Positions 594 to 41,015 of a stretch of 41,078 nt of DNA are shown in pieces (the first letter of the stretch is position 1; each line of letters starts with the position of its first letter). The stretch comes from a virus. The stretch covers positions 1-41,078 of IMG/VR virus record IMGVR_UViG_3300050821_007408. One strand, written 5' to 3'. Below the pieces are notes generated by a model. It made no database searches and was not told the DNA's origin. It saw nothing but the letters and a program-made list of their open reading frames with translations. The position numbers and the translations under genes are program-made.

Positions 594-811
594 GAAAACT
601 TTCTAGATCCACATCGCCCGGTGGAAAAAATATTTTAGGTATAGAAAAAGCGAAAACCCGAACATGCAAAAAAATGCGAATCCTCGCTCCGCTCACCGAC
701 ATCGCCAGAGTCGCCCACCCGACACACCCGTCAAATTCCCTTCGCCATCTCTGCGCTTTGTCAGGTTCCGACCCCAAAAAATATGTAGACAAATTTGGGA
801 AAGGATGTAAG

Positions 812-1849
812 GTGGCTTGTCATAAGGACTTAACACAACGCCGCATGACTGACCTCCCCACTCCCCTAGCAGAGATCGCCGATTCAACGGGCCTAAAAGA
901 AGAAGTTAGGACCGCCGCAGCCGCCAAAGATGCATCTAAAGCGGCGCTCAAACTCATCCAGGGGACCGAGGAAATTAAGGGCGATCCGCTTGGCGAAACA
1001 GCCTTCCTCGCGCGCTTTCTGGTGCAATGTACGCTGCCCCACAAAGACCCCGGCAAGGTGCCAGTGTGGAAGCGCAGGAATGGCGCATACACGCTCATCA
1101 TCCAGCCCGGTTGGGATGACCGCAACGATTGCCCACTCGGTTACCCCTATGGCATCCTGCCCCGCCTGATTCTGATCTGGATGGTCACAGAGGCGAAGCG
1201 TACAGGTGTGCGTAGGCTTCATCTCGGAGGTCGCCTGGCTGACTTCTCGCACGAGCTGGGACTGGACACGACGAAGGGCGGCAAGCGCAGCGACACGGCC
1301 AGAGTCAAAGAGCAATTCGCGCGCCTAATCGGGTCGCACATCAGCTATCGCAGGCGGTACCAAAGCACCGCTTGGGACGGTGACACACTGCAACATGGGG
1401 AGCTGGAATTTACCCGGCAGCAGCCCATCGTCGAAGAGAGCCAGATCGGTTGGTGGGTACCTGGCAAACGCGCCCTATTCGAGAGCTACATCGATCTCAG
1501 CCACGATTTTTTTGCAGCCATCATGGAGAGCGCGATTCCGTTCGATCTTCGAGCAATCAGGGTGTTGAGAAAGTCGCCGCTGGCGCTGGATTTATACCTC
1601 TTCTGCAACTACATCGGCGCGAACCTTACACAGCGCGGGAAGACGAAACACTTGCTCACCTGGCGAATGCTCGGCCAGCAGCTGGGATGTGACTACGCAG
1701 ACCAGAACAACCTCAAGAAAAAAATCAAAACCGCGATGCGTAAAGTGAAACTCGCACACCCAGGACTCAAGGTAGGCTACCCCGCAGCCGGCGGCCTCGC
1801 CATCTACGTCAGCGCCCCGGCGATCGCGCCGCGCACGGTGAGAGCCTAA
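812..1849 (+). CDS. repA: Plasmid replication initiator, RepA_C family
   Basis: The protein matches the plasmid-encoded RepA family (RepA_C): the central stretch around nt 1060-1330 contains YPYGILPRLILIWMVTEA, then LHLGGRLADFSHELG and a KGGKRSDTARVKEQFARL segment, the winged-helix DNA-binding signature of that family. It should bind the iterons at 373-593 and open the origin with host DnaA. The frame is open from 674, but the first ATG there has no ribosome site. GTG at 812 has AAAGGA six bases upstream and is chosen; ATG at 845 is the main alternative. It is followed without a gap by a 44-aa membrane protein and a terminator. A replication initiator of plasmid type inside a genome full of virion genes is the main sign of a phage-plasmid. 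Confidence 0.85.
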   Translation: MACHKDLTQRRMTDLPTPLAEIADSTGLKEEVRTAAAAKDASKAALKLIQGTEEIKGDPLGETAFLARFLVQCTLPHKDPGKVPVWKRRNGAYTLIIQPGWDDRNDCPLGYPYGILPRLILIWMVTEAKRTGVRRLHLGGRLADFSHELGLDTTKGGKRSDTARVKEQFARLIGSHISYRRRYQSTAWDGDTLQHGELEFTRQQPIVEESQIGWWVPGKRALFESYIDLSHDFFAAIMESAIPFDLRAIRVLRKSPLALDLYLFCNYIGANLTQRGKTKHLLTWRMLGQQLGCDYADQNNLKKKIKTAMRKVKLAHPGLKVGYPAAGGLAIYVSAPAIAPRTVRA

Positions 1850-1983
1850 TGCGTTACTTCTTAGCTGGAGGGCTGTACTGCATCGGCGTGCTGATACTCG
1901 TCGATCTCGTGCGTACCCTCAACCGGATCAGGAACGAACGGCGCGCCGCCGCGAAACAACACGTTCCGTACAAGCTCTCCTAA
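1849..1983 (+). CDS. 44-aa single-span membrane protein
   Basis: Start and repA stop share one base (TAATG), so translation is probably coupled to repA. The 44-residue product has a short basic start (MRYF), one hydrophobic segment of about 17 residues (LAGGLYCIGVLILVDLV), and a basic C-terminal tail rich in Arg, predicted cytosolic. No family is recognised. Being between repA and the terminator it is probably made with RepA, so it could link the replicon to the membrane or be a small toxin or lysis-type peptide; nothing in the sequence decides this. Composition matches its neighbours. Confidence 0.6.
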   Translation: MRYFLAGGLYCIGVLILVDLVRTLNRIRNERRAAAKQHVPYKLS

Positions 1984-2005
1984 CCAGAGAGAACCAAGGC
2001 AGATT

Positions 2006-2032
2006 GGCCTCCGGAGACGGAGGCCTTTTTTT
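2006..2032 (+). terminator. Rho-independent terminator of the repA unit
   Basis: GGCCTCCG (2006-2013), loop GAGA, CGGAGGCC (2018-2025), then seven T. It is a perfect 8-bp GC-rich stem with a T-run on the plus strand. It lies 22 bases after the 44-aa gene and its T-run overlaps the stop codon of the convergent RHH gene, insulating the two units. Confidence 0.92.
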
Positions 2033-2357
2033 AGGATTTGCGCAGCAGCCCCAGACAGCTCGCCACGGCGTCGCGAATGAATTCTGCAGGGATGATGCCG
2101 CGCTCACCCCGCAGGCGCTCCAGCTCGGCAATCTGCCCCGCTGGGAGCCGGATGGGATACGGCACCATCCGCTCACGCTTGCCACCTGGCCGCAGGGACG
2201 CGAACCCGTTCAACAGGTCCGATCCATCTGGCGACGGAGGGGCAGATTGCGCCTCGCTGGGAGCCTCTACAGCGTCTCGGCGGTCCCGGATGGAGGTAAG
2301 GGGTACTCGGATGTCTTCGAGAGCGTGTGAGGCGAGGGGAGCGCGTTGCTGAGCCAT
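2031..2357 (-). CDS. Ribbon-helix-helix partition partner of ParA (ParB-type centromere-binding candidate)
   Basis: The 108-residue product has a Pro/Ser-rich flexible N-terminal half and a C-terminal RHH-like domain: a short strand (MVPYPIRLP) followed by two helices (QIAELERLRGERG and PAEFIRDAVASCL). Small RHH proteins encoded after a short ParA are the usual centromere-binding partner in type Ib partition systems, and the disordered N-terminus often stimulates the ParA ATPase. The start is set by AAGGAG seven bases upstream of ATG at 2357. It overlaps the end of parA by 91 bases in another frame, so the two are co-translated. It probably binds the repeats at 3005-3099 and represses the operon. 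Confidence 0.75.
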   Translation of the reverse strand: MAQQRAPLASHALEDIRVPLTSIRDRRDAVEAPSEAQSAPPSPDGSDLLNGFASLRPGGKRERMVPYPIRLPAGQIAELERLRGERGIIPAEFIRDAVASCLGLLRKS

Positions 2358-3004
2358 GCCAAAATCTCCTTCGTGAGGTTGACGTACTCCACCGCTGCGG
2401 TGTGGCGTGGAGCGTAGTCGAAGATGGTTTCACCAGAGCCGGACACTTCTGTAACGGGTGCGCGATCGCCGATGGTGGTAGTGAGCACAACAGCGCCTTC
2501 GATCGGCGCGAACAGAATCGCCGCCTGCTCTTGAGACTGACGGCCAAGCAGCGTGTTTTTACGGGCGTTGATGAGGACCGCGACCTTGGCCTCCGGCAGC
2601 TTCTCTCGCGCGAGGACGCGGACGAAGCTGGCCGCCGCAGAGAAATCGAGCGTCGAAGGACGGAGCGGGACCAGGATGGCGTCGGCACCGTGCAGCACAG
2701 CCCGCGTGAACCTGGCCGCTTCGTCCTGATCGGCGAAGCCAGGAGGACAATCGACCAACACAAGATCCTCTTCAGCGTTCGCCAGGCCTGAGAATCGCCA
2801 CTTGAGCTGACGCGCCGGCCGCACTTCAAAGGGCAGACTTCCCTGCCCTTTCGCCAGACTCCAGACGGTTGCGCTGGCCTGCGGATCGGCATCGACGACC
2901 AGGACCGAATACTTGGCGCGGCAGAGACCGCCTGCGAGGTTCATGGTGGTTGTGGTCTTTCCGCAGCCGCCCTTTTGGTTCGCGATCGCAACGATGATAG
3001 GCAT
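2267..3004 (-). CDS. parA: ParA-family partition ATPase
   Basis: A 245-residue deviant-Walker P-loop ATPase of the ParA/Soj/MinD group. MPIIVAIANQKGGCGKTTTT is at the N-terminus with the signature KGGxGKTT, followed by VVDADPQASA and LVLVDCPPG (Walker B region). Small size without an N-terminal HTH fits type Ib plasmid partition. It moves replicon copies apart by ATP-dependent binding to the nucleoid. The frame is open upstream to 3046, but MPII at 3004 matches the family's usual N-terminus and leaves the repeats outside the gene. It heads an operon with the RHH gene, transcribed away from a TTGACC promoter near 3121. Confidence 0.92.
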   Translation of the reverse strand: MPIIVAIANQKGGCGKTTTTMNLAGGLCRAKYSVLVVDADPQASATVWSLAKGQGSLPFEVRPARQLKWRFSGLANAEEDLVLVDCPPGFADQDEAARFTRAVLHGADAILVPLRPSTLDFSAAASFVRVLAREKLPEAKVAVLINARKNTLLGRQSQEQAAILFAPIEGAVVLTTTIGDRAPVTEVSGSGETIFDYAPRHTAAVEYVNLTKEILAWLSNALPSPHTLSKTSEYPLPPSGTAETL

Positions 3005-3099
3005 GAGATTACTGTATGCCCTACGGTGGAGATTACGGTAGTGCATACAGGGGTTCTACCGTAGAGATTACGGTAAGCTCTACGGTAGAGGTTACACTG
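3005..3099. repeat. Centromere/operator-like repeats upstream of parA
   Basis: Three copies of a 20-bp unit close to CTACGGTAGAGATTACGGTA occur at 3021-3040, 3056-3075 and 3080-3099, with a partial fourth at 3005-3016. Copy 2 contains a perfect inverted repeat, TACCGTA-gagat-TACGGTA (3057-3075). They lie between the parA promoter and the parA start. Plasmid partition operons usually hold the parS site and the autoregulatory operator here, bound by the RHH partner. The role is inferred from position and symmetry. Confidence 0.75.
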
Positions 3100-3126
3100 T
3101 GTAATACAGATGCGCGCGAGGGTCAA
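3098..3126 (-). promoter_or_regulatory. Sigma70-like promoter of the parA operon
   Basis: On the minus strand TTGACC (3126-3121) is separated by exactly 17 bases from TACACA (3103-3098). Transcription would begin inside the third repeat, so protein bound to the repeats would block it, consistent with autoregulation. Confidence 0.5.
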
Positions 3127-3218
3127 AAAGGCGCATATTGGGGTTATGGAAAGGCCTTCCACTAATCCCCCGGCAGACGGCAACGCCGCAGGCTTCGCCC
3201 AGTAAAGGAGTTTCAACG

Positions 3219-3782
3219 ATGGCGCGACCGATTACCTGGCTCCCGCGAGTTCAAGAGATCCGCCGATCGGTGGCCGAATCGGTGCGATCGCACTACACGC
3301 GCCGGGAGTTGGAGGCGCTGTTTCAGATCCAGCAGGGCGCGGCGTCGAGGTTGCTGGAGATCGTACCCACCTTGGCCGTGAACGGGAGCTACCTGGCCGA
3401 GAGAGAAGGCCTGCTGGCGTTTCTGGACCGGGTTTCGGAGACCGAGGACGTAACTACCTTGATGCGCCGGCTAAGAGAGGAGAAGCGCACCCCAACTCGC
3501 CGGTCCGTGCGGAACATGGTGCGCCGCGACACGTCGCCAGTGAGCCTCGCAGGGATACCGGACACCCTGCACCTGAGTCGCGGGCATCTGGACATCAATT
3601 TTCAGACGATGGAGGAGCTGGTTAACACGTTGTACATTCTGGCGCGAATCCTAGATGACGACCTGGAGGAGTTTGCGCGCGAGTACGAGCCAGTTAAACC
3701 GAATGAGATCGACGAAGGCCGCGAAGATGTAAAACGATTGTTCGCCGAACTGGAGGAGCTGGAGGCCACGCGAAGCGCGTAA
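3219..3782 (+). CDS. Hypothetical protein with MARPITWLPR N-terminus
   Basis: A 187-residue, mostly helical and charged protein. AAAGGAG eight bases upstream fixes the ATG at 3219, although the frame is open earlier. The N-terminal part (RVQEIRRSVAESVRSHYTRRELEALFQIQQGAASRLLE) looks like a helix-turn-helix resembling those that read a target and then bind DNA. The C-terminal part has a LILARILDDD-type helix and an acidic end. I recognise it as a recurring hypothetical of Acidobacteriota genomes and elements (recollection, no search done), but know no function. It is divergent from parA and could be a regulator or accessory DNA-binding protein. Confidence 0.75.
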   Translation: MARPITWLPRVQEIRRSVAESVRSHYTRRELEALFQIQQGAASRLLEIVPTLAVNGSYLAEREGLLAFLDRVSETEDVTTLMRRLREEKRTPTRRSVRNMVRRDTSPVSLAGIPDTLHLSRGHLDINFQTMEELVNTLYILARILDDDLEEFAREYEPVKPNEIDEGREDVKRLFAELEELEATRSA

Positions 3783-3815
3783 TCTGTTTAGGCGCACGAT
3801 GAAAGGAGGTTCCCG

Positions 3816-3881
3816 ATGACAGAGCTGATCGCAATCTTAGCGGCTGTGTGGGATTCGCCAATTGATATTGGCGGCGCATAG
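3816..3881 (+). CDS. 21-aa peptide ORF with perfect Shine-Dalgarno
   Basis: AAAGGAGGT ends seven bases before the ATG, the best ribosome site nearby. The 21-residue product (MTELIAILAAVWDSPIDIGG plus A) has a hydrophobic first half. The end of the ORF lies on an inverted repeat CGCCAAT-TGAT-ATTGGCG (3856-3873), so a ribosome would melt this hairpin. This arrangement suggests a leader peptide, but a small structural peptide is equally possible. No homolog is recognised. Confidence 0.4.
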   Translation: MTELIAILAAVWDSPIDIGGA

Positions 3882-3935
3882 TGTCACGATTCTGTGACGG
3901 AATACGCTCATAGGGGGGAGGGGCAAACTCCCCTC
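3856..3935. repeat. Three successive inverted repeats between small ORFs
   Basis: CGCCAAT/ATTGGCG (3856-3873, 4-base loop), GTCAC/GTGAC (3883-3898, 6-base gap) and GAGGGG/CCCCTC (3918-3935, 6-base gap) follow each other in 80 bases. None has a T-run, so they are unlikely to be intrinsic terminators. The middle one has operator-like symmetry. They sit directly before the 47-aa Cys-rich gene at 3952. Confidence 0.45.
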
Positions 3936-3951
3936 TGAGAAAGAGGACGCC

Positions 3952-4095
3952 ATGCAGATCATGCCGGTAGGGATGCCGCAGTGGATGGTAACGAGGTGGT
4001 GTTGGTCGTGTGGGAAGTTCCGGTTCCGCAAAGATGAAACGGTCTGTTCCCGCTGCGAGGCGCAGCAGGCGGATGGGCCGAAGGGCGAAGCCTGA
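3952..4095 (+). CDS. 47-aa zinc-ribbon-like protein
   Basis: The 47-residue product has CWSCG and CSRCE, two CxxC pairs about 15 residues apart, typical of a zinc ribbon. A GAGGA-type ribosome site precedes the ATG. It ends directly next to the stop of the convergent gene at 4096. Small zinc ribbons like this recur through this genome (5176, 8318, 34954, 40059). Function is unknown; nucleic-acid or protein binding is likely from the fold. Confidence 0.6.
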   Translation: MQIMPVGMPQWMVTRWCWSCGKFRFRKDETVCSRCEAQQADGPKGEA

Positions 4096-4320
4096 TTAGA
4101 TGTCGTCGGCGTCTAGAACCTCATCGACCAGGCCCAACTCTTTTTTAGCCGCCGCGATCGCAGCCCGCAGACAGAAGTTATTGCGCGACGCGATGACGTG
4201 ACGGCGCTCAGCATTTTTTTCCGTCGCCTGTTGGATAAGGTCATATTCCGCTTTTGTTGCCCGTAAACCAAGCTCTACATATGAGGGGCTTTTACCTTTC
4301 GGTCTACCCGCCTTCGCCAT
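4096..4320 (-). CDS. Small RHH-like DNA-binding protein, divergent from rusA
   Basis: The 74-residue product begins with a basic AGRPKGKSP arm, followed by ELGLRATKAEYDLIQQAT, a strand-helix pattern like RHH/Arc repressors, and an acidic tail. Two starts are possible. ATG at 4356 coincides with the predicted transcription start, leaving no leader. ATG at 4320 has AAGGA six bases upstream within a 36-base leader and is chosen; the longer form adds a Lys/Arg-rich dozen residues. It is the only minus-strand gene among plus-strand genes on this side and has a strong promoter, features of a phage repressor or other switch regulator (inference). Confidence 0.7.
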   Translation of the reverse strand: MAKAGRPKGKSPSYVELGLRATKAEYDLIQQATEKNAERRHVIASRNNFCLRAAIAAAKKELGLVDEVLDADDI

Positions 4321-4362
4321 CTTCTTCCTTCTAGTAGCTTTTTTCTTAGTCTTCATGCCTGT

Positions 4363-37019: not shown

Positions 37020-37325
37020 TTAAATTCCCCCGTCTTTGCGTGGTTTCCACGGCGCGACCGACGCACCGCGCAGAGACGAAGGCATGATGCCGATGGGCGA
37101 GTTTGGATCAGCGGCGGGAACGTGTTTCAGAATGTCCACAGGCCCCGCGTCGTCGTCATCATCCTCCATGACTTGCAGGTAGGCGCGAGGGTGCATGACG
37201 CCACCAGCAAAGACGACCATCGTTCCCTCTGCGCTGGTGTCAAGGTAAGTTGTGGCGGGACCGTCTTCGATGTACTGCCGAATGCGGTCCCACTCTTCGG
37301 TGGTGATGATGGGCGAATTGTTCAT
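37020..37325 (-). CDS. 101-aa acidic hypothetical protein
   Basis: AAGGGGG precedes the ATG at 37325. The product has ITTEEWDRIRQYIEDGPATT, AEGTMVVFAGGVMHPRAYLQ and a run of five Asp (EDDDDDAG, about residues 54-60), giving strong negative charge; acidic small proteins sometimes mimic DNA. It shares one base with the upstream gene's stop. No family is recognised. Confidence 0.5.
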   Translation of the reverse strand: MNNSPIITTEEWDRIRQYIEDGPATTYLDTSAEGTMVVFAGGVMHPRAYLQVMEDDDDDAGPVDILKHVPAADPNSPIGIMPSSLRGASVAPWKPRKDGGI

Positions 37326-37660
37326 TAAATCCCCCTTCGGTCTGGGATGTGATTGTTGAGCGCGGCCGCGATCCGCTTCGCCAGCGTGTTGCTGACAGCG
37401 GTGCAGATGGCGCGATCGGAGAACATGACGCGCAAGCCTAGAGCGACGTACTGCGCACGAAGCGGCAGCCGCACACCAGCGAAGCGGAAGACCTCGCGCC
37501 AGCTCTCGCCCTGACAGATAACTCCTAAAGGTTTAGTTTCCTTGCGGAGTAGGCAGGGCGCGGCGCTAAGCGGAAGGACGCTCGCCTTCCAATCTGGCCC
37601 AAGAAAATAACGGGCCAGATCGTTCGCCTGGGCGACGGTGAAATCTTCATGTACCGCCAT
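37325..37660 (-). CDS. 111-aa hypothetical protein
   Basis: Starts MAVHEDFTVAQANDLARYFL, with GGAG ten bases upstream, overlapping the previous gene by 14 bases. It contains several Cys (PCLLRKET, VICQGE, AICTAV) but no CxxC. The C-terminal part is helical (NTLAKRIAAALNNHIPDRRG). Function unknown. Confidence 0.5.
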   Translation of the reverse strand: MAVHEDFTVAQANDLARYFLGPDWKASVLPLSAAPCLLRKETKPLGVICQGESWREVFRFAGVRLPLRAQYVALGLRVMFSDRAICTAVSNTLAKRIAAALNNHIPDRRGI

Positions 37661-38128: not shown

Positions 38129-38365
38129 TTAGCGGACCTCCTTGCCGGCCATCTTCGATTCGAGGCGGATAATCTGCTGTGCCAGGTCAAGCATGACGAG
38201 GGTGAGCATGCTTTCCCGCTTGGTCTGGCGACTCAGATCGGTCGCCAGATAGTAGCCAATGCGCGTGACTTTGTTGTAGGCCGCTTGGTGGCTCAGCGGT
38301 GGCTCTGCGCACTCGTTACAGAGCGCGGGAGCGACGGTGGGAGCTGCTGTGGTGTGGAGGTTCAT
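38129..38365 (-). CDS. 78-aa hypothetical protein
   Basis: The ATG at 38365 follows the repeated leader element (AAAGGA ten bases upstream). The product starts MNLHTTAAPTVAPALCNECA (one CxxC), then RIGYYLATDLSRQTKRESML and TLVMLDLAQQIIRLESKMAG, a helical end. The single CxxC could pair with His residues near 30. Unknown role. Confidence 0.55.
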   Translation of the reverse strand: MNLHTTAAPTVAPALCNECAEPPLSHQAAYNKVTRIGYYLATDLSRQTKRESMLTLVMLDLAQQIIRLESKMAGKEVR

Positions 38366-38375
38366 CGGTGTTGTG

Positions 38376-38402
38376 TCCTTTCGGTGCTGGGCAGATGGCC
38401 CA
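38376..38402 (-). promoter_or_regulatory. Repeated leader element, copy A
   Basis: Minus strand: TGGGC-CATCT-GCCCA hairpin, then CAGCACCGAAAGGA, with the ATG of the 38365 gene ten bases after AAAGGA. It shares the 16-mer CCCAGCACCGAAAGGA with copies at 40023-40048 and 40942-40966. It looks like a structured ribosome-binding leader acting on mRNA, or a protein site. Confidence 0.7.
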
Positions 38403-38420
38403 CGCGGTTGATGTTGAGGT

Positions 38421-38621
38421 TTAGATAGGTTCGTTGCGTTTGAGTAGGGAGGCGACGGTCTCATTTTCGAGATCGAGTGTGGTGTTAACCGCGCAGCCCA
38501 GAATCTCTTCCAGCTCCCGCGCTCTATCCCAAAGCTGTGTTTGCGCCGTGGCGCACATGCCCAAAAGGATTACAGCGCGGAAACTGTCTGCGGAATTGAG
38601 CTTCTTATTTTTCATCGTCAT
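38421..38621 (-). CDS. 66-aa hypothetical protein
   Basis: ATG 38621 (MTMKNKKLNSADSFRAVILL) has GGAG seven bases upstream, inside the end of the previous gene. It has a hydrophobic centre (FRAVILLGMCATAQTQLW) and a helical, acidic end (LDLENETVASLLKRNEPI). Without clear membrane spans it may be a small helical binding protein. Confidence 0.5.
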   Translation of the reverse strand: MTMKNKKLNSADSFRAVILLGMCATAQTQLWDRARELEEILGCAVNTTLDLENETVASLLKRNEPI

Positions 38622-39159
38622 TGTCTTGCTCCTCTTCGTCTTCTTCGTTGCATACTGCACAATTGGAACCAGCTTCCAGCTCCGCGCCGCAGTCCGGGCA
38701 GAGACCATCGCACAACTCCTCCTCTTCTTCGTCGTCTGCGTCATCGGCGAAGAGAGGGGCGATGTCATCACCAGCAACCGTCTGCGGTGGCCCACAGAGG
38801 ACGTAGGTTGACCCGCCGCTCTTGACCGTCATGCCGTGATAGAACCCGTCCGGGTCGTTCCGCGCGTAGTCTCCCGCATACTCATCCCCTTCGTTCACGA
38901 TGGAGATTTTTTCGCGGTAGGTTGTAGGCTCACCATCAAATTCAGCGAGTGAAACGAGGCGATAGAGCTGGGCATTGCGACGGGCACCGCAACCACTCCC
39001 GCCCGTCGAAACCCAGAGATCACCGCCACACGAAACGGGTTTGCGCACGCGGCCATGTTCTGCGATGACATCGGCGCTGTAAGAGGCGAAGGCTTTGGCG
39101 AGATCGATATTCTCCACCGTGGGCGCTGCGGGTGCGAAGAGTCCTAACTGGCTATTCAT
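38605..39159 (-). CDS. 184-aa protein with C-terminal zinc ribbon
   Basis: The start MNSQLGLFAPAAPTVENIDL overlaps ardC by ATGA with GAGGTGG upstream. The body is beta-rich (LYRLVSLAEFDGEPTTYREK, GGSTYVLCGPPQTVAGD). The C-terminus has CPDCGAELEAGSNCAVC, a four-Cys ribbon, between two acidic runs. The fold is like ssDNA- or protein-binding accessory proteins of plasmids next to ArdC. Unknown. Confidence 0.55.
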   Translation of the reverse strand: MNSQLGLFAPAAPTVENIDLAKAFASYSADVIAEHGRVRKPVSCGGDLWVSTGGSGCGARRNAQLYRLVSLAEFDGEPTTYREKISIVNEGDEYAGDYARNDPDGFYHGMTVKSGGSTYVLCGPPQTVAGDDIAPLFADDADDEEEEELCDGLCPDCGAELEAGSNCAVCNEEDEEEQDNDDEK

Positions 39160-40016
39160 GCGGCCACCTCTTCGAGCTGGGCCACGGTGCGGCCAAGGAT
39201 GTAGTCTGCGGCCTTCTGCGCACGCTGCGCAGCGAACACAGCGATGCGCGAATCGCCCTTGAGCACCTTCAGCCATGACGCGAGATAGGCCGCGTTATGC
39301 GCATCGGTATCGTCGGAGCTGATGCCGGATTCAGCCAGCAAAAACGCGGCGGTAAACTCTGCTGTCAACTCCTCTTGCGAATACGCGGGGGTGCCGAACT
39401 TGCCGGATAGATCGCGCTTGAGTCGTGACGGGTGCGCGGTGCTGTGGCCCAGCTCATGAAAGAGAGTGTCATAGTACAGCTCACGTTTGGAGAATTGCGC
39501 GCCGTCTGGCATGTGGACGGTATCGCTGGATTGCGAGTAGCACGCGCTGGAACCGCCATGCAGCAAGCGTGGATGCGATGCAGCGGAGAGATACCCGTCT
39601 ACGATGGTTTGCGCTTCAGCAATGGCATCGAAGGCAGGAACGTCAAAGGGAATTTCGGGCTGGATTCCGTCGATCTGATCGAGATTGAAGACGGTAAAAT
39701 TCTTGCTCCAAGCGGTCTTTTTCTTCGTCTCCGCTTCTTCGCCAAACTGCCAGAACACAACAGGTGTGCCACGTTCGCCCTTGCGAACCTGACCGCCCAG
39801 CGATTGCGCTTGTTTATAGGTCATCCACTGGCGAGTAGGGAACCCGCTGGATAGCAGCATGATCGTATTGATGCCGTGGTAGCTGCGGCCTGTCGCGAAG
39901 TTACAAGGCAGGTACGCTCCGCGCGAAGTATTTTTCCAAGGTTGACGCCACGGGATGACGCCAGACTCCAGTTTTTCTATCAGTCTATTTGTAACCACTT
40001 CGTATACATTTGCCAT
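39156..40016 (-). CDS. ardC: ArdC-type antirestriction protein
   Basis: The 286-residue product has both ArdC parts. The N-terminal ssDNA-binding domain matches in MANVYEVVTNRLIEKLESGV IPWRQPW, YHGINTIML and TYKQAQSLGGQVRKGE. The C-terminal zincin-like domain has HELGHSTAH (His187, Glu188, His191) and an extra E-rich helix (EELTAEFTAAFLL). ArdC proteins, common on conjugative plasmids, protect incoming single-stranded DNA from restriction (known for the family). In a phage-plasmid it would shield entering DNA. ATG 40016 follows copy B of the leader element. Confidence 0.88.
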   Translation of the reverse strand: MANVYEVVTNRLIEKLESGVIPWRQPWKNTSRGAYLPCNFATGRSYHGINTIMLLSSGFPTRQWMTYKQAQSLGGQVRKGERGTPVVFWQFGEEAETKKKTAWSKNFTVFNLDQIDGIQPEIPFDVPAFDAIAEAQTIVDGYLSAASHPRLLHGGSSACYSQSSDTVHMPDGAQFSKRELYYDTLFHELGHSTAHPSRLKRDLSGKFGTPAYSQEELTAEFTAAFLLAESGISSDDTDAHNAAYLASWLKVLKGDSRIAVFAAQRAQKAADYILGRTVAQLEEVAA

Positions 40017-40022
40017 CGTGAT

Positions 40023-40048
40023 TCCTTTCGGTGCTGGGGCGATGCCCA
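40023..40048 (-). promoter_or_regulatory. Repeated leader element, copy B
   Basis: Minus strand: TGGGCATCGCCCCA hairpin, then CAGCACCGAAAGGA, six bases before the ardC ATG. It is the version with GCCCC instead of GCCC. The AAAGGA doubles as the Shine-Dalgarno. Confidence 0.7.
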
Positions 40049-40058
40049 ATGGGTTGAG

Positions 40059-40247
40059 TTAGCGGGTGTGGTTTATCGGGTAGCAGACTGCGCCGCAATT
40101 TGAATCGGGACACTGGCCCCACGGCATTGTTTCTCCCGGTGCGACGCGCTCTAATACGTCGTCTATCGCGTCCAGCTCATCTTCGCGGTACAGCGTGGAA
40201 CAGTTTTGACACATGATGTTTTTGGGAGCTGCGGTCTTTTTCGGCAT
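40059..40247 (-). CDS. 62-aa zinc-ribbon protein
   Basis: TAGGAG precedes ATG 40247. The product starts MPKKTAAPKNIMCQNCSTLY (CxxC) and has WGQCPDSNCGAVCYP, four to five Cys in a zinc ribbon. The middle is acidic (REDELDAIDDVLERVAPGET). It sits between the clamp-loader-like gene and ardC. Function unknown. Confidence 0.6.
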   Translation of the reverse strand: MPKKTAAPKNIMCQNCSTLYREDELDAIDDVLERVAPGETMPWGQCPDSNCGAVCYPINHTR

Positions 40248-40276
40248 ATCGATTTTCTCCTATGGGTTAAGTTGAG

Positions 40277-40933
40277 TTAGTCAGCCAGAAGTAACTCTGT
40301 CTGCAATTGCATGAGTGACGCGCGAACGTTGGAACATGCCTCTTTGACAATCCGCGCAAAGTTGGGACGGGTTGCGCCTTGCGGTGCTTCTGCATCCCAC
40401 ACGCGCTCTAAAAGCTGCGCAGTTTGGGCGGATTGACCGTGTGATGAGAATTGAACCGGGATGCATCGCGACAGTAGCCGCTCATGCAATTTATCGGTGT
40501 TGTTTGCCGTGAGGATAAAGAGCGTGTCTGGTGGTGGTGCGGTGCTATCCAAGATTGACAGCATGTAGAGCTGTGCCGCCGCGCTCATCTGATCGGCTTC
40601 GTCAATCAAAACGAGATGTCGTTTGTATCCCGCGCTGGGTACGTAATGGCAATTGGAGACGACTTGCCGTAACCGTTCGACGTTGCAATCCTGCGATGCG
40701 ACGTGATGCAGCTCCGCAGGCATCTCCGCTGCGAGTGCGAGTGCGAGTGTGGTTTTGCCGATGCCGGGTTCGCCCAGAAACAAGAGGCCAGCGGAGCGCG
40801 GCGGATTAGCCGCCAACTTCGCAGCGATGCGACGTGGTTTGTCTAGGCCGATGAATCCGGAGATGGTTTGCGGCCTGTATTTTTCGGTGAGAATGTCTGC
40901 GGTGGGAGCGGTTGCGGCGAAGAGTGATTCCAT
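40277..40933 (-). CDS. AAA+ clamp-loader-like ATPase
   Basis: The 218-residue product matches the clamp loader/RuvB-like branch of AAA+: LTEKYRPQTISGFIG at the start, Walker A GEPGIGKT (residues 54-61), Walker B LVLIDEADQM (Asp111), sensor 1 LFILTANN, and the SRC arginine-finger motif in LLSRCIPVQF. The C-terminal collar is short. Alone, without a polymerase or sliding clamp nearby, it may work with host replication or as a phage-specific loader. ATG 40933 follows leader copy C and the promoter at 40986. Confidence 0.8.
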   Translation of the reverse strand: MESLFAATAPTADILTEKYRPQTISGFIGLDKPRRIAAKLAANPPRSAGLLFLGEPGIGKTTLALALAAEMPAELHHVASQDCNVERLRQVVSNCHYVPSAGYKRHLVLIDEADQMSAAAQLYMLSILDSTAPPPDTLFILTANNTDKLHERLLSRCIPVQFSSHGQSAQTAQLLERVWDAEAPQGATRPNFARIVKEACSNVRASLMQLQTELLLAD

Positions 40934-40941
40934 GTGATACG

Positions 40942-40966
40942 TCCTTTCGGTGCTGGGCATCGCCCA
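40942..40966 (-). promoter_or_regulatory. Repeated leader element, copy C
   Basis: Minus strand: TGGGC-GAT-GCCCA hairpin, then CAGCACCGAAAGGA, eight bases before the clamp-loader-like ATG. Best-formed hairpin of the three. Confidence 0.7.
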
Positions 40967-40985
40967 AGTGCTGACTGCGGACTAC

Positions 40986-41015
40986 AAGGTAACCTAACCC
41001 CTCACATCCTGTCAA
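40986..41015 (-). promoter_or_regulatory. Putative promoter of the minus-strand operon
   Basis: TTGACA (41015-41010) with an 18-base spacer to TACCTT (40991-40986). It lies about 50 bases before the clamp-loader-like start and is the only obvious promoter ahead of the genes running to 36827. The -10 is poor, so control by a factor is possible. The last 60 bases of the window hold no gene I can support. Confidence 0.5.

Follow-up and report, generated by a model that had tools for sequence, protein, structure and literature searches.

In the 41-kb viral contig analysed here (41,078 nucleotides; hereafter the window) and in its relatives, a short hairpin precedes the start codons of most early-operon genes that are not translationally coupled to an upstream gene. 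This hairpin probably acts as RNA, on the mRNA, a reading to which we give a probability of roughly 60% on the basis of sequence comparison; that a lineage-specific factor reads it is less secure. The element has a GC-rich stem (4 to 10 bp), a small loop and G-poor flanks, and it lies about 21 nt 5' of the start codon, which is where the 5' edge of an initiating 30S subunit is expected. Comparison between phages establishes its position, its strand, its restriction to one operon, its link to uncoupled starts, the retention of pairing and the concerted sequence of the copies within a genome.

The window is an IMG/VR virus record in which CCCAGCACCGAAAGGA occurs as three exact copies across the whole contig, all on the minus strand (40942-40957, 40023-40038 and 38376-38391). 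Every copy continues from a GGGC/GCCC stem, and the spacing from CCCAGCACCGAAAGGA to the ATG is 8 nt at the gene for an AAA ATPase, 6 nt at ardC and 10 nt at a gene for a 78-aa protein. The original prediction, that the same 16-mer follows a GGGC/GCCC hairpin 6 to 10 nt from the ATG of three genes, is thus confirmed with exact copies. Start hairpin 1 (40942..40967, minus strand) has the stem TTGGGC/GCCCAG, the loop GAT and the tail CACCGAAAGGA; start hairpin 2 (40023..40048, minus strand) has the stem GGGC/GCCC, the loop ATC and one extra C, together with the tail; and start hairpin 3 (38376..38402, minus strand) has the stem TGGGC/GCCCA and the loop CATCT, again followed by the tail. No fourth copy was found in the contig on either strand with up to 2 mismatches, a result that also led us to reject a separate antisense RNA locus, and at up to 3 mismatches there are 4 matches compared with 0.60 expected from dinucleotide shuffles of the contig. 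Taken singly, none of the three leaders has an exceptional folding energy against shuffled sequences (z = -0.35, +0.28 and -1.09), so the case for structure is a comparative one. Rfam gave no match in the window, and the start hairpins themselves match no curated RNA family in the relatives.

The three leaders belong to an early operon on the minus strand. Its first gene, behind start hairpin 1, encodes a clamp-loader-like AAA ATPase resembling T4 gp44 (40277..40933; PHROG 168, 8e-32; PF13177), and start hairpin 2 precedes ardC, which encodes an anti-restriction protein (39156..40016; PF08401, 4e-34; PF18818, 8.5e-37; PHROG 7245). Two genes have no hairpin: a 62-aa gene between the AAA gene and ardC (40059..40247; 29-nt gap) and a 184-aa gene (38605..39159) that overlaps the ardC stop codon and is presumably translationally coupled to ardC. 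Start hairpin 3 stands before the gene for the 78-aa protein (38129..38365), for which no family match was found and whose one homologue, in the close relative G001, also has a leader. A conserved gene of about 104 to 112 aa, F01 (37325..37660), lies close to where the leader-bearing stretch ends on its downstream side. Upstream of the AAA gene, a promoter-like TTGACA - 18 nt - TACCTT (40986..41015, minus strand; a consensus match only) has a -10 box that ends 18 nt before start hairpin 1. Elsewhere the window encodes a RepA_C replication initiator (PF04796, 2e-19; 674-1849, plus strand) and a ParA-like partition protein (PHROG 164; 2267-3046, minus strand), and the position of these genes next to phage packaging and head genes suggests a phage-plasmid; RepA_C is present in 9 of the 21 records (the window and 8 of 20 relatives). 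Near the contig end (41030-41078) are iteron-like direct repeats, about 11 or 22 bp long; such repeats also lie upstream of the AAA gene in the relatives L019, L020, L023 and L024, and in L019 and L023 they recur in operon gaps, before start hairpins.

A search of viral contigs for the pattern GGGC-N2-7-GCCCAGCACCGAAAGGA recovered the identical element from seven other IMG/VR contigs; these are about 40 kb long and have one to four copies each, always before start codons. The six analysed genomes of this window group contain 18 copies, in which the stem, the T that precedes it and the 13-nt tail are nearly invariant, whereas the copies differ in loop (10 kinds), in 5' flank and in distance to the ATG. 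The AAA genes of the group are only 73-85% identical in DNA to that of the window, so conservation is stronger in the element than in the adjoining coding sequence. Within this close clade the element stays with the genes, and its loss from relatives that keep them, the outcome named beforehand as refuting the original prediction, was not observed; some distant AAA genes stand without a hairpin. The GenBank phage collection held no DNA similar to the window, and its AAA matches were below 60% identity and, among the matches listed, were clamp-loader subunits, mostly of T4-like phages. In L016, a member of the window group, two genes (2266 and 2619) have a further repeated start hairpin, GGGCGGCGCGTCAGCCGCCC, immediately 5' of their Shine-Dalgarno sequences; this phage has the common element as well.

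Homologues of the AAA protein also turned up in other viral contigs and in bacterial assemblies, where eleven contigs carried them; ten of these are labelled Acidobacteria and the eleventh comes from an uncultured unclassified single cell. The hosts of these uncultured soil viruses are probably Acidobacteria, an assignment of phylum that follows from the homologues lying in Acidobacteria bins. Many of these contigs carry their own lineage-specific repeated start hairpin at the equivalent place, for example GGGGC-AAT-GCCCC-ACACC, GCGGG-TTCG-CCCGC-ACC, GGGC-TCCG-GCCC-TCAACC (7 copies), GGGC-GARA-GCCC-CCAAC (5 copies) and GGCC-CATAGC-GGCC-CCAAAC (5 copies); in L051/G019 the stems range from 4 to 10 bp beside a constant ATAACC tail. 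Twenty genomes were read as two 20-kb pieces each, which in the larger ones covers all but a central stretch of up to 7 kb, and both strands were scanned with each phage's own motif. In the regions read from the 21 phages, motif copies are confined to the AAA-led operon and to its strand, with the exception of a few weak matches of short motifs away from starts in G010 and G019. The cleaned catalogue, compiled partly by looking for hairpins, holds 82 start hairpins from 21 phages, and the distance from the 3' base of the hairpin to the start codon has a median of 21 nt (interquartile range 19-24). When AAA genes are taken more broadly, a hairpin falls between -52 and -11 in 49 of 70, compared with 24.6 expected.

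The pairing of the two arms is kept as their sequence changes. Arms pair in 100% of the 82 leaders and in 59% when 3' arms are swapped between phages, a test that is partly circular because many leaders were found as hairpins. Two controls help against this circularity. The covariation score over fourteen distinct tetraloop versions is 0.665, compared with 0.114 when shuffled and 0.06-0.20 when slid, and a repeat-first search near starts, made without regard to folding, gave sites of which 100 of 174 on the operon strand have a hairpin (52.2 expected), compared with 7 of 30 on the opposite strand (6.0 expected). Stems thus covary across the 14 flavours in the kind of covariance comparison that had been proposed for related phages, as expected of an RNA hairpin element. 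Two-sided changes also occur within single genomes, from GGGC/GCCC to GGGT/ACCC in G008 and from GGGGC/GCCCC to GGGGA/TCCCC in G009. Retention in relatives, restriction to the translation starts of one operon and these compensatory stem changes give strong support to the original prediction of a selected element. That prediction had left RNA and DNA side by side, and here the compensatory changes and the variable loop lengths favour RNA over a double-stranded DNA site. An intrinsic terminator was rejected, as the hairpins are followed by an A/C-rich linker and a Shine-Dalgarno sequence and not by a T-run. Insulation of the Shine-Dalgarno sequence by the hairpin was rejected as well (predicted accessibility 0.467 native and 0.466 scrambled, p = 0.35), as was its masking by the C-rich linker (pairing 0.177 compared with 0.152, p = 0.05; accessibility no different).

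The presence of a leader follows the spacing of genes. An upstream gap of at least 30 nt precedes 57 of the 59 leader genes compared with 31 of 96 genes without a leader (Fisher p = 4e-17; ORFs were called by a simple script, so some starts may be wrong), and overlapping genes, presumably translationally coupled, have no leader. Gene content between the AAA gene and the downstream conserved gene of about 104 aa is highly variable across relatives; one leader-tagged gene of about 209 aa in L013 (2765-3394; family F07, with homologues in L016 and L017) has by eye the look of a GGDEF-type diguanylate cyclase, with a GGEEF motif. The first leader is preceded by a TTGACA-type site in 18 of the 21 phages, with the -10 box ending a median of 20 nt upstream of the hairpin, compared with 4 of 61 internal leaders that have a promoter-like site within 60 nt, and an internal promoter at each copy was rejected on this count.

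Comparison of the copies indicates that hairpin sequence tracks the genome rather than the gene that it precedes. Leader similarity is 0.62 within a phage; between phages it is 0.15 for leaders of one gene family, and 0.09 once the window group is set aside. For 60 of 64 leader copies the nearest neighbour lies in the same phage. On the AAA tree the 14 flavours need 13 changes. In the sister phages G020 and G022 the AAA proteins are about 90% identical, yet the stems differ at all copies, including four orthologous starts. Genes of their replication locus differ too (23% identity, with RepA_C found in one only), and because many other genes also differ, no partner can be named from this pair.

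Self-cleaving ribozymes lie close to the leaders in some relatives. Type-P5 twisters above the Rfam gathering score were found in early-operon gaps of L030 (2324-2387 and 3082-3144), L067 (1830-1893), L076 (2087-2151) and L055 (3011-3068), and a hammerhead II just below threshold lies in L024 (947-1018; 35.1 compared with 37 bits, E = 0.001). The ribozymes of L030, L067, L076 and L024 end 12-18 nt before a leader, and the twister of L055 ends about 20 nt before the start codon, where the hairpin would be. All hammerhead core bases can be read by hand in the sequence preceding a leader in L051, a further record (G032) has two twisters in Rfam, and Rfam found no ribozyme in the window. In some relatives, upstream self-cleavage would release messages with the hairpin near the new 5' end. 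Together with the proximity of the hairpin to the predicted 5' end of the first transcript, this arrangement downstream of ribozymes in four relatives is what might be expected if the hairpin were a passive stabiliser or processing boundary, shielding the 5' ends of primary or ribozyme-processed messages from nucleases with no specific partner. The freedom of stem sequence and length in G019 and of loops in the window group fits such a role too. We regard it as rather unlikely, since it leaves unexplained why stem and tail are near-identical within a genome and change together, and why the distance to the start codon is narrow at internal genes that have no mapped processing sites.

A DNA operator, in which a phage repressor would bind the inverted repeat in the manner of the stoperators of Cluster A mycobacteriophages, would account for inverted repeats in a single orientation relative to transcription and for their lineage-specific sequence, as operator and repressor pairs would show. 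It is improbable, because a rigid dimer site would not accommodate loops that range from 3 to 7 nt or stems that range from 4 to 10 bp, and because the position is tied to the start codon and not to a promoter. Similarly improbable is a recombination linker, where short identity at gene boundaries would aid the exchange of accessory cassettes and recombination would keep the copies alike; the very variable gene content between leaders and the likeness of copies within a genome agree with it, but the 5' flanks and spacers differ between copies, one gene family carries different leaders in different phages, and neither conserved pairing nor fixed start-codon spacing is needed for such a function. 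Hairpin promoters of the type used by the phage N4 virion RNA polymerase, which are read on single-stranded DNA, resemble the window group in its stem of about 5 bp and 3-nt loop repeated before early genes, but are a very improbable match since the loops are not conserved and the first gene in most phages has a TTGACA promoter of host type in front of it. PF00940 (phage RNA polymerase) had no match in the 21 records, nor in the controls.

The preferred reading, an RNA hairpin at the start, would have the element act on the mRNA, either at translation initiation or at the mRNA 5' end. The original suggestion of a translational operator that coordinates the operon is consistent with the data, and such an operator remains putative. 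A less secure part of this reading is a trans-acting factor, differing from one phage lineage to the next, that would recognise the stem together with the 3' tail; the tagged genes would then respond together and their leaders would evolve in concert, and the lineage specificity of the factor would explain why sequence follows genome. No trans-acting binding factor was identified in the 21 phages. CsrA and Hfq were rejected as partners, being absent from the phages, as was RepA as a universal partner given the partial distribution of RepA_C; the AAA protein is the sole family present in all 21 phages by simple clustering. Loops are often the recognised part in RNA operators, and their free variation in the window group counts against specific recognition. 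A more elaborate scheme is tentative: each lineage's own RNA tag (hairpin and 3' tail) may be read by a diverging phage-encoded factor, so that gained accessory and anti-restriction genes join one post-transcriptional regulon, with ribozymes in some lineages cutting the operon into tagged messages.

The nearest known kind of element is the start-associated sequence (SAS) of Cluster K mycobacteriophages, where an extended form (ESAS) also occurs, and of Cluster EF Microbacterium phages (PMC3203893, PMC7302621). Like SAS, the leaders are short, strongly conserved repeats within a few nucleotides of starts, covering the ribosome binding site of several non-structural genes, nearly all in one orientation and behind a sizeable upstream gap; Cluster K SAS share the preference for genes with large upstream gaps, and the ESAS consensus likewise differs between subclusters. 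SAS differ in their 13-bp consensus (GGGATAGGAGCCC or GGGAAAGGACCCC), which the hairpin sequences here do not match, and in holding the Shine-Dalgarno sequence inside the repeat, whereas here the hairpin precedes it and the stem covaries. In the SAS papers (PMC3203893, PMC7302621), hairpins were judged poorly supported for ESAS, and an interpretation as DNA-binding sites was favoured. In the open-licence literature we found nothing of the same kind beyond the SAS papers. Hammerhead ribozymes that flank single prophage genes, ardA among them, have been known since 2011 (PMC3088659); there too, self-cleaving ribozymes lie among early or anti-restriction genes (here near ardC or other operon genes). 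By analogy, ribozymes between genes suggest processing into single-gene messages, but most gaps here have no ribozyme and the constant feature is a non-ribozyme start hairpin. The T4 gene 43 RNA operator (PMC3014915) is a single autoregulatory operator about 40 bases upstream with important loop bases, whereas here many genes per genome are tagged, loops are free in the window group and a binder is only postulated. The 17-bp palindromic repeats of Cluster O mycobacteriophages (PMC4351075) are also many inverted-repeat copies with a short variable centre, but their placement follows neither start codons nor orientation, and roughly one third of them fall within genes.

Start-associated repeats of actinobacterial phages have been known since 2011 without a mechanism. 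The present set adds phages of probable acidobacterial hosts, in which such repeats have a testable RNA structure and come in many natural flavours. Sister phages that differ at every copy make it possible to ask which phage gene changes with the hairpin. Another question is whether early genes, once acquired, are given a lineage-specific RNA tag by the phage. Most gaps in L028 (about 1519-4330) and L068 (about 825-1923) contain, ahead of the start hairpin, another hairpin that is longer: GGGCGGGCCTCCGGGCCCGCTCTCAACC in L028 and, in three gaps of L068, a CCGGCCTCGG-type palindrome. This layout recalls the extended SAS arrangement. Gaps in L067, L076, L051 and L028 also contain a second short repeat, TATAGTTATAGTTATT or parts of it, which in several gaps comes after the upstream stop codon.
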